This document shows, piece after piece, positions 1,808 through 52,284 of a DNA stretch of 64,000 nt. Position 1 is the stretch's first letter, and every line of letters begins with the position of its first letter. The notes beneath the pieces were generated by a model. The model was not told the origin of the DNA, did not search any database, and saw nothing but the letters and a program-made list of their open reading frames with translations. Location: contig NZ_CP045997.1 of the NCBI RefSeq assembly GCF_010233585.1, forward strand, positions 9,879,793-9,943,792, in the 5' to 3' direction. A program made the position numbers and the translations under genes. This stretch comes from Spirosoma endbachense (lineage in GTDB: Bacteria > Bacteroidota > Bacteroidia > Cytophagales > Spirosomataceae).

Positions 1808-1942
1808 TGTCCTGCTGCTGAAAGTAGGGTTTTCGCTCAGAGGTGTGCAACGGTTTCTAATCGCACTCTTGCTAACCGTGGCACACCTTTGAGCGAAAAT
1901 CCTAGAAAGAAAATAGACACTGTTTTCATCGTCAGCAGGACA
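1808..1942. repeat. Dispersed palindrome, copy 1 (with nested outer arms)
   Basis: The inner arms at 1826-1855 and 1874-1903 pair over 30 positions (27 Watson-Crick, two G-T) around an 18-nt loop. The core nearest the loop is gtgcaacggtt / aaccgtggcac. A second, separate pair of 10-nt arms, tgtcctgctg at 1808-1817 and cagcaggaca at 1933-1942, encloses it. The element sits between the convergent TonB-receptor and YdeI-like genes, where it could end both transcripts, although no T-run follows. Three more copies of the core occur in this window. Confidence 0.85.
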
Positions 1943-8423: not shown

Positions 8424-8515
8424 GACTTCCGGTGAGCGCCTTCATAGGTGTGCCACGGTTGCTGATGACGCTCCTACTAACCGTGGCACACCCTCGAGGG
8501 CGCTTACTGAAAGTC
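8424..8515. repeat. Dispersed palindrome, copy 2
   Basis: Arms at 8424-8460 and 8479-8515 are complementary at 30 of 37 positions around an 18-nt loop. The core gtgccacggtt / aaccgtggcac is perfect, while the outer arm (gagcgcc / ggcgct) differs from that of the other copies. It begins 32 nt after the VOC gene stop. Confidence 0.85.
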
Positions 8516-12686: not shown

Positions 12687-12829
12687 ACCAATCATTTTGC
12701 CTTGAAAGGGCGGTTATACCTCAAAGCCCTGCAAGCGGCTTTTGCGGAACTGGCCGTCCTCAAAAATCAACTCAGCCAACATCCACAAATGGAGTTGGCG
12801 TAACATCAGTTAAGAAGTAGTGAACAGTT

Positions 12830-12911
12830 TTAGGCCTTTGGCCTGGAGCCGTGCCACGGTTACTAGTGATGCGTAAACAAACCGTGGTACGGCTCCAGGC
12901 CAAAGGCCTAA
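12830..12911. repeat. Dispersed palindrome, copy 3 (near-perfect)
   Basis: Arms 12830-12861 and 12880-12911 match at 31 of 32 positions, the exception being a G-T pair, around an 18-nt loop. The core is gtgccacggtt and the outer arm is ggcctttggcctggagcc, itself partly palindromic. It lies 7 nt beyond the stop codon of the MFS gene, on whose transcript it would form a very stable hairpin. Confidence 0.9.
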
Positions 12912-24035: not shown

Positions 24036-25943
24036 TTACAAAATCCACCAAAGCAACACCAGCAGGCCCACTACAGCTGCCGTAATGTACGACTGCACAC
24101 GACCGTTCTGAACGGAACGGGTTAATCGTCCGGCCTGACCGGCCAACCAGGCAGCACCGTTCACAAAGCCATCTACCCCAAAACGATCAACAACATGCGT
24201 AATTTGTGCCAGAACCACCGTTGTTACGCCCGCACCGTTCACGACCCCATCGACCACGCGCTGATCGGTGCGGTTGAGAAGCAGGGCCAGTTTGTGTATT
24301 GGCCTAATAACGAAGTATTGGTAAACCGTATCTAAAAAGCCATACTTAAGCGAAAGACGCACATAGCTTCGGGTATAACTGGGTTCACGCATCTGAAAGC
24401 CAAACCAGCCGCCTGCCAGTACAAGACCGATGGAAACCGGAGCCAGCCACCAACTGGCCACTTCTTCTGCTACGGGCACTAACCGGAAAAACCAGCTCGA
24501 ATGCCCCGATAACGGATTTATGGCAAACCAGAACCATACTGACAACACTGCCAGAATCACCACTGGCCCCCGCATGAGCCAGTCTGGTTCATGAACGTGT
24601 GCCATTGGCTCGGACTTGTTCTGGTATTCGCCGAAAAAAATCAGTCGCCACTGGCGAGCCATATACAAGGAGGTCAAACCAGAAGATCCTACCAAAAGTA
24701 CCGGCACCAGATAAGCCAGCCCATTGGTCTGTACACCAGCCCACCAAAAAGCCCCGCCCAGGATAGCCTCTTTCGATAAAAATCCGGCAAAGAAAGGCAA
24801 TCCAGCCAGAGCGGCCGCACAAACCGTGTAGGCAATGAATGTTGTTGGAATTGCCTTCCGCAAGCCACCCATCTGACGCATATCCTGCGTGTTGACTGCG
24901 TGAATCACAGCGCCAGCGCTCAGGAATAAACCGGCTTTAAAAAACGCATGAGTCAGCAAGTGGAACATGGCTCCTCCAACATTGTCGGTACCCATACCAG
25001 CAACCATCAGCCCCAGCTGCGAGACCGTCGAGAAGGCCAGTACTTTTTTGATGTCGGTTTGAAAAACAGCTGAATAGCCACCCCAAATGGTTGTTAGGGT
25101 GCCAATGAATGCAATGACGACCAGAGCATCCGGTGACAGCAGCGGATGAATTCGGGCCAGCAGAAAAATACCAGCCGCAACCATCGTGGCAGCATGCAAT
25201 AGAGCCGATACGGGTGTCGGTCCTTCCATGGCATCGGGCAACCAGGTCAATAGCGGGAATTGGGCCGATTTTCCAACACAACCCATAAACAGGCATAAAC
25301 CGATAGCTGTTGGTGGAATGGCCTGAATACCATTGGCCAGTAAAGCATTAAATTCAAGCGTATCGAAGTAATAGTACGTCAGGAAAATACCGAGCAAAAA
25401 ACCGATGTCGCCAACACGGTTCATCAAAAAAGCCTTTTTAGCCGCTTTTGATGCGGCAGGGCGCTCGGCATAAAAGCCAATCAGCAGGTAAGAAGCCAGA
25501 CCAACCAGTTCCCAGAAGGCATACATTACCAGGAGGTTACCGGACAGGACAATTCCCAGCATAGCCCCGACAAATAATTGCAGGTAAGCGAAATAGCGGG
25601 ATAACTTCGGTTCATCGTGCAGGTAGGAGAGCGAATAAATCTGGACGAGTAAAGCCACAAAATGGACTAATACGAGCATAATCCCAGTGAGCACATCCAG
25701 CCGGAAACTAACACCAAACGATACGCCTGACACCGTTGCCCAGTCGGTTCGGATCGTAACAGCCTGTTCGGGCATTGTTGCCGCCAGGAACACCGACACT
25801 ACCAGGCCAACCCCTGTCGACAGAATTGCCAGCTTACCCGAAACCAGTCGGCTTAGGCCCGTCAATGCCAGAAATCCGGCGAAGGGGAGCCCCAGTAAGG
25901 CAATCATCAGCAGGGAAATTAGTTGGGGAGCGTCGTCAGGCAT
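24036..25943 (-). CDS. nuoL: NADH-quinone oxidoreductase subunit L
   Basis: 635 residues, the largest membrane subunit of complex I. Visible marks are YAFWELVGLASYLLIGFYAE, LLTWLPDAMEGPTPVSALLHA and KKVLAFSTVSQLGLMVAGMG, plus the long C-terminal segment that includes the lateral helix. It lies directly upstream of nuoM. On the upstream side the usual partner nuoK is about 1.8 kb away, with an opposite-strand oxygenase gene between them, so nuoL-nuoM must have its own promoter. Confidence 0.97.
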   Translation of the reverse strand: MPDDAPQLISLLMIALLGLPFAGFLALTGLSRLVSGKLAILSTGVGLVVSVFLAATMPEQAVTIRTDWATVSGVSFGVSFRLDVLTGIMLVLVHFVALLVQIYSLSYLHDEPKLSRYFAYLQLFVGAMLGIVLSGNLLVMYAFWELVGLASYLLIGFYAERPAASKAAKKAFLMNRVGDIGFLLGIFLTYYYFDTLEFNALLANGIQAIPPTAIGLCLFMGCVGKSAQFPLLTWLPDAMEGPTPVSALLHAATMVAAGIFLLARIHPLLSPDALVVIAFIGTLTTIWGGYSAVFQTDIKKVLAFSTVSQLGLMVAGMGTDNVGGAMFHLLTHAFFKAGLFLSAGAVIHAVNTQDMRQMGGLRKAIPTTFIAYTVCAAALAGLPFFAGFLSKEAILGGAFWWAGVQTNGLAYLVPVLLVGSSGLTSLYMARQWRLIFFGEYQNKSEPMAHVHEPDWLMRGPVVILAVLSVWFWFAINPLSGHSSWFFRLVPVAEEVASWWLAPVSIGLVLAGGWFGFQMREPSYTRSYVRLSLKYGFLDTVYQYFVIRPIHKLALLLNRTDQRVVDGVVNGAGVTTVVLAQITHVVDRFGVDGFVNGAAWLAGQAGRLTRSVQNGRVQSYITAAVVGLLVLLWWIL

Positions 25944-52182: not shown

Positions 52183-52284
52183 GTTTTTTGGTGGGGGGCG
52201 GGCGGGTTCTGTCCCTGTCCACGGTTATTTTGTCGATCTTAAGAAACCATGGCACGGGAACAGAACCCGATCCCGACAAAAAAC
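52183..52284. repeat. Dispersed palindrome, copy 4 (less perfect)
   Basis: Arms 52183-52226 and 52245-52284 pair with bulges; the core is gtccacggtt / aaccatggcac and the loop is again 18 nt. Outer arms contain cgggttctgt / acagaacccg and end in gttttttg / caaaaaac. It starts 3 nt after the lipoprotein gene stop, between convergent genes. Confidence 0.75.

Follow-up and report, generated by a model that had tools for sequence, protein, structure and literature searches.

The palindromes described here are members of a family of 80-bp elements in Spirosoma endbachense which we consider probably to be MITE-like DNA, mobilised in trans, whose arms are re-copied by template switching during replication. 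The covariation between the arms was most likely written by replication and not maintained by selection on RNA. As far as our searches show, this MITE-like palindrome family, which evolves in an unusual way, is undescribed and unnamed; no description of it was found in titles and abstract openings, a coverage that most subscription papers lie beyond. The analysis started from a stretch of 64,000 nucleotides (G000:C1:9879793-9943792), termed the window, in the 10.33-Mb genome of S. endbachense (G000), termed the own genome.

The original prediction had placed four palindromes with a common core and a loop of exactly 18 nt at 1826-1903, 8424-8515, 12830-12911 and 52183-52284 of the window. All four are present there with both features (core mismatches 0, 0, 1 and 1), and their refined coordinates are listed in Table 1. 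Copy 4 is assigned to the family by its core and loop only. A core search of the window with up to three mismatches gave five matches, namely these copies and a chance-like fifth at 25415 with three mismatches; since 2.67 matches are expected at this threshold, only those with few mismatches are meaningful. The exact core with a loop of 5-35 nt was matched twice in the window and never in 100 shuffles, and the folding of each copy beats all of 200 shuffles (z -8.5, -8.6, -10.4 and -4.3). Copy 3 is matched by the covariance model of the family at genome positions 9892623-9892702 with 94.8 bits, and is directly flanked by the near-duplication AGTTT/AGTAT (four of five bases, by eye). At the flanks of copy 2 no clear target duplication was seen. 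The position of every copy shortly after a stop codon holds in the window, where the copies start 4-38 nt past the ORF ends at 1788, 8392, 12803 and 52179, but it is no rule genome-wide. The ORF ending at 12803 is doubtful and part of it recurs elsewhere in the genome. Directly upstream of copy 3, the 126 bp at 12687-12812 have at least seven further occurrences in the genome at 97-100% identity, and one of these lies close to an ISAs1-type end at 9211097; this stretch may be another repeat or a mobile fragment.

Table 1. Family members and target duplications in the window (positions counted from its first nucleotide)
Feature	Position	Strand	Description
Copy 1	1825..1904	- (near-tie: 9 vs 8 matches to loop consensus)	80-bp palindrome TAGGG..TCCTA; 18-nt loop 1856-1873
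Copy 1, left target duplication	1820..1824	.	GAAAG, 5 bp; same as 1905-1909
Copy 1, right target duplication	1905..1909	.	GAAAG, 5 bp
Copy 2	8424..8515	+	Palindrome; outer arms diverged, internal mismatches; core and 18-nt loop 8452-8487
Copy 3	12831..12910	+	80-bp palindrome TAGGCC..GGCCTA; loop 12862-12879
Copy 4	52183..52284	+	Diverged member; core with mismatches, 18-nt loop, GC-rich unrelated outer arms with bulges

A genome-wide search removed the concern that few further copies might exist. The exact pattern GCCACGGTT-N16-19-AACCGTGGC is matched 77 times in the own genome and its reversed control not at all, and CCACGGTT-N18-AACCGTGG is matched 60 times; the copies are dispersed along the chromosome. 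Exact copies with an 18-nt loop occur in seven of 36 genomes of the genus (own genome 60, G004 41, G003 17, G007 8, G009 5, G005 2, G006 1). A covariance model based on 52 of the own copies has matches in 19 of the 36 at E <= 0.001, a count that differs from copy numbers because 130 candidates were scored per genome and both strands of one palindrome may count. In a phylum sample of 395 genomes, including only one other genome of the genus, the sole match was the own genome. A scan of named genomes gave 30 stretches, in Spirosoma arboris, S. endophyticum, S. fluviale, three Niastella species (five stretches) and four others. Core matches in Pseudomonas, Rappaport, Paludibacteraceae and Phycisphaerae look like chance, with no more than six additional paired bases just outside the core. 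In the Niastella copies (L124-L127, L146), the core is that of the family, the loops partly share GTTTGCG and the outer arms are different; with one mismatch allowed, the three Niastella genomes hold 1, 4 and 1 copies, the last number being no higher than that of its control, which it equals. These copies are likely, though not proved, to be kin to the Spirosoma family, and their sequences suggest an older and wider core family. Viral contigs contained no exact core, and plasmids no match to copy 3. The family is found mainly in Spirosoma.

The unit of 80 bp reads YAGGnCTTTCGC..GAGCCGTGCCACGGTT, followed by a loop of usually 18 nt and the mirror image. Its consensus, TAGGnCTTTCGCTnAGAGCCGTGCCACGGTT - ACTAATGATGCnCAAACA - mirror image, was derived from 52 aligned own copies: 84 pattern matches were reduced to the 57 in which 20 or more of the 24 outer pairs are in register, and five of these, having irregular arms or mirrored insertions, were left out. 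The core hardly varies, and the outer arm is variable but changes in step. The earlier view that the outer arms differ completely between copies was mistaken, since they follow a genome-wide consensus (TAGGnCTTTCGCTnAGAGCCGTG) to which copies 1 and 3 conform and from which copies 2 and 4 have diverged. The constant loop proved to be a modal length: 18 nt in all four window copies and, among the copies found in the stretches examined, in 67 of 82 own copies and 44 of 53 in G004, but 3, 7, 9, 13, 16, 17 or 19 nt in the other 15 own copies. Copies with a 3-nt loop, namely L041 at 7570180 (CTA), L226 and L234 (both TAA) and L061 (ATG), have well-paired arms and by their sequence appear as loop-deleted members; the one at L041 is common to the own genome and G004. 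Unique insertions are mirrored in both arms at L022, L039, L040, L046 and L056. In addition, some palindromes of the own genome and G004 (L016, L060, L064, L067, L242 and L255) have a module rich in GC, of some 15-16 nt or more (e.g. CGCAGCCGCGGACGGT, sometimes in tandem), at the core position CCAC|GGTT, and at the first four of these it is present in just one of two orthologs. At L255 it forms the whole centre between the usual arms, and a few palindromes combine the same outer arms with another centre. The module may be a second element or a product of template switching.

That the palindromes are mobile, one of two readings initially offered, is supported by target duplications and by empty sites in G004, a relative with 90.5-94% identity in aligned blocks of the window. 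With the ends set at NAGG and CCTN, which are recognisable in 56 of 82 own copies, exact 5-bp direct repeats adjoin 11 of the 56, where 0.28 are expected and 300 swaps of the right flanks never gave more than 2. Repeats of other lengths numbered 0 for k=3 (1.11 expected), 1 for k=4 (0.37), 3 for k=6 (0.14) and 0 for k=7-9. A looser direct-repeat score was reached by 18 of 74 copies in the own genome against 2.45 expected; in G004 it was reached by 5 of 43 against 1.9, within the control range. Three loci show clear junctions, each consistent with a 5-bp duplication: L059 fits exactly (CTTGT twice, and once in the empty site), and at L031 (ATGCC and ATACC, empty site ATACC) and L054 (TTAGT and TTAAT, empty site TTGGT) the repeats differ by one base. 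Copies 1 and 2, L027 and L063 are also missing in G004, with less clean junctions; copy 2 is missing along with adjoining sequence. The site of copy 1 is occupied in G004 by a small hairpin resembling a terminator, and copy 1 may have entered the loop of such a pre-existing hairpin. Modelled empty sites of the 56 own copies fold at -7.13, lower than any of 40 flank swaps (mean -6.33, lowest -7.03). Pairing within 12 nt outside the copies is 4.79 compared with 3.56 in 500 swaps (highest 4.23), both scores including some copies that kept arm sequence in the "flank". The original prediction had also proposed an element that rebuilds its flanks as a palindrome. This found no support: the arms belong to the element and follow the family consensus, and the target duplication is located outside them. 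Because of the 5-bp direct repeats and the three empty sites, we regard the family as inserted, MITE-like DNA. It has terminal inverted repeats and a target-site duplication of fixed length, the latter pattern being weaker in G004, and it is non-coding, dispersed and multi-copy. What speaks against this reading is that no mobilising gene was found and that the core is much more conserved than the ends, the opposite of what is expected of a simple MITE.

The claim that the arms remain complementary within each copy was confirmed. In the 52 aligned copies, 97.3% of 1612 cells are paired, a value inflated by drawing them from 57 copies pre-chosen for at least 20 of 24 outer pairs, and in 256 cells both partners depart from the commonest pair. 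Covariation scores 0.497, compared with 0.128 after shuffling and at most 0.102 in slid controls. Of the 396 arm pairs at 14 sites common to G004 and the own genome, 24 have changed on both sides and still pair, where independence predicts about 1.6 mirrored changes or 4.8 of any two-sided kind. One-sided changes are more frequent (39 of 396), and 24 of these 39 lie in the decayed copies L041 (7571026), L057 and L220. At L007, a length difference of 5 nt between the orthologs is mirrored in both arms; one-sided length differences are present at L041 and L064. Furthermore, the loop is reverse-complemented in place at five of 16 informative sites: L007 (14/18), L026 (18/18), L044 (17/18), L058 (12/18) and, by eye, L060. 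Orientation is kept at L005, L024, L038, L039, L041 (7571026), L057, L222 and L235, and by eye at L016, L064 and L067. The count leaves out L041 at 7570180 with its 3-nt loop and L220 with unrelated loops, and L039 at 7338547 and L070, which were not spanned, lie outside the comparison. Most stretches of G004 were picked around exact-core copies, which biases the ratio of shared to empty sites and the core conservation seen in place. Orthologous sites of the family hence combine mirrored arm changes with inverted spacers, the pattern of template-switch hairpins.

The element inserts through a staggered cut of 5 bp, as the target duplications and empty sites show, and its mobilising enzyme would act in trans. 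From the pattern of mirrored arms and inverted loops we infer a polymerase mechanism that acts after insertion. The long inverted repeat would be re-copied repeatedly through template switches during fork progression, when the nascent strand may fold back or jump to the other strand, with one arm as template for the other. Mutations and small indels would in this way be erased or copied to the second arm, and the spacer would sometimes be inverted. The apparent covariation would in consequence arise at the DNA level, and stable RNA hairpins and any terminator activity would be by-products.

Mirrored differences and flipped loops could also appear in one step if ectopic gene conversion among family copies swapped whole palindromes. 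Some sites could be explained in this manner, such as L058, which is heavily different between orthologs, and L220 with its unrelated loop. Few changes are seen, however, at L026, L038, L041 (7570180) and L044, and the loop of L026 is the exact reverse complement of that in its own ortholog, which makes conversion an unlikely general explanation.

Selection on RNA structure, the other initial reading, would make the palindrome a 3'-UTR hairpin, acting as a bidirectional terminator or mRNA-stability element, with pairing preserved by compensatory substitutions. The covariation is strong, as this reading demands, and the window copies fold very stably. The median distance of the copies is 41 nt to a stop codon and 102 nt to a start codon (no control); this closeness to stop codons would suit terminators, but also selection against insertion in promoters. 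By rough ORF calling, both neighbours could be assigned for 71 own intergenic copies, of which 24 are in ++ and 15 in -- context, 20 convergent and 12 divergent; 11 of 82 are left out (four with weak arms, six inside called ORFs, one with a neighbour missing). Background gaps include 96 convergent and 99 divergent among 504, so that the convergent excess has p 0.08, but divergent gaps hold copies at near background frequency, also in G004 (9 divergent and 10 convergent, n=44). In 60 copies of tandem context from both genomes, read on the sense strand, G-U exceeds A-C by 34 to 22, which is not significant (p 0.14); the ratio is 21 to 11 in convergent copies, where the strand is arbitrary, and 6 to 9 in divergent ones. 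The same 60 copies lack a downstream T bias (3.5 T per 10 nt, 3.4 upstream), and the U-tract of an intrinsic terminator is represented by TTTT downstream in only 11. No Rfam match at gathering score was obtained across the window. Relative to flanking tandem genes, the loop has the same orientation in 29 and the opposite orientation in 28 of the clear cases, and loops are reverse-complemented in place. The inverted loops, the mirrored length difference at L007, the lack of a significant G-U excess and the 29:28 orientation lead us to prefer DNA template switching. Of the claimed selection on RNA structure, the covariation stands, while RNA selection is not needed and weakly supported; as the main cause we rate it as quite improbable.

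A further possibility is that transposition uses a single arm to build each copy, synthesising the second arm by snap-back, so that mirroring would happen then and not in place. Many copies are indeed perfectly mirrored, including ones with unique insertions, but mirrored changes and inverted loops build up at the same site after insertion, and such an origin is very improbable.

An origin as an ISAs1-derived MITE is most improbable: ends of some copies (CAGGGCTTTC) resemble those of ISAs1-family elements with ends CAGGGCTTTCTTATAAAA and an ISAs1 transposase (NF033564) in the same genome, but the similarity stops after about 10 nt, and of three readable short elements one (L302) has a 10-bp repeat (TAAAGTTGAT) and two have none, against 5 bp here. 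These elements (L302, L294, L296), with paired ISAs1-type ends about 250-290 bp apart, are themselves likely ISAs1 MITEs.

The search for the mobilising enzyme covered several candidates. REP palindromes go with a RAYT transposase of the Y1 type. HUH single-strand transposition would, to our knowledge, not be expected to leave a duplication of 5 bp. A REP/RAYT identity was rejected, as the Y1 transposase (PF01797) had no match in the own genome among nine candidates scored, with five of 14 control genomes positive. The exact end motif AGGACTTTCGCT occurs at 57 sites in the own genome, with 17 close pairs and 23 single sites. Nineteen single sites and one paired site were examined, of which four were already known copies; their flanks hold palindromes in variant or decayed form and some matches of an unrelated kind, and a relaxed search gave near partners for most. 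At the four loci with neither a near partner nor a visible hairpin (L239, L246, L249, L254), no transposase was detected among the 10 ORFs scanned within about 3.5 kb, the transposase scan being confined to these loci. Ten PF01609 loci, partly masked, showed no clear matching ends.

The preferred reading, re-copying by template switching, allows a more speculative extension, to which we give a small chance. The all-palindrome design may be an adaptation of a self-correcting element: arms would repair or share mutations, copies could drift freely in sequence yet keep a perfect structure and remain transposable, and the enzyme would read only the core GTGCCACGGTT and the loop, partly common with Niastella, at the hairpin tip.

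Bacterial MITEs include RUP, Correia/NEMIS and ERIC; these are short, non-coding, dispersed and mostly intergenic, with terminal inverted repeats and a target duplication. The family has the same traits, but it differs in being nearly all inverted repeat, with a centre more conserved than its ends, mirrored arm drift and no partner transposase found (bacterial MITEs in general are reviewed in PMC10969869). Template switching has been described to cause arm homogenisation and spacer inversion in yeast (PMC8604942) and multi-base compensatory changes and inverted loops in RNA genes such as rRNA (PMC8794818), all of which have counterparts here. As far as the main statements of these two papers go, the published cases are RNA genes on the one hand and, on the other, coding genes of yeast whose inverted spacers differ at 2-5 bp, whereas the present family has 31-bp arms and 18-nt spacers, is dispersed and mobile, and is compared between orthologous sites in bacteria. 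Mitochondrial DNA also has repetitive hairpin-forming elements that are mobile-looking, lineage-specific intergenic palindromes, but they are organellar and, in the outline given in PMC2800124, those of sponges have conserved stems and variable loops. REP/RAYT palindromes resemble the family as extragenic palindromes of high copy number (PMC3733652, in outline), in contrast to which the own genome has no match to the Y1 domain.

Covariation is usually taken as proof of RNA function. Here, DNA copying explains strong covariation better, a case based on dozens of dispersed copies, orthologous pairs and empty sites. The family offers a natural assay, within a bacterial chromosome, for the rates and polarity of template switching and for spacer inversion, and it calls for caution when RNAs are discovered by covariation.
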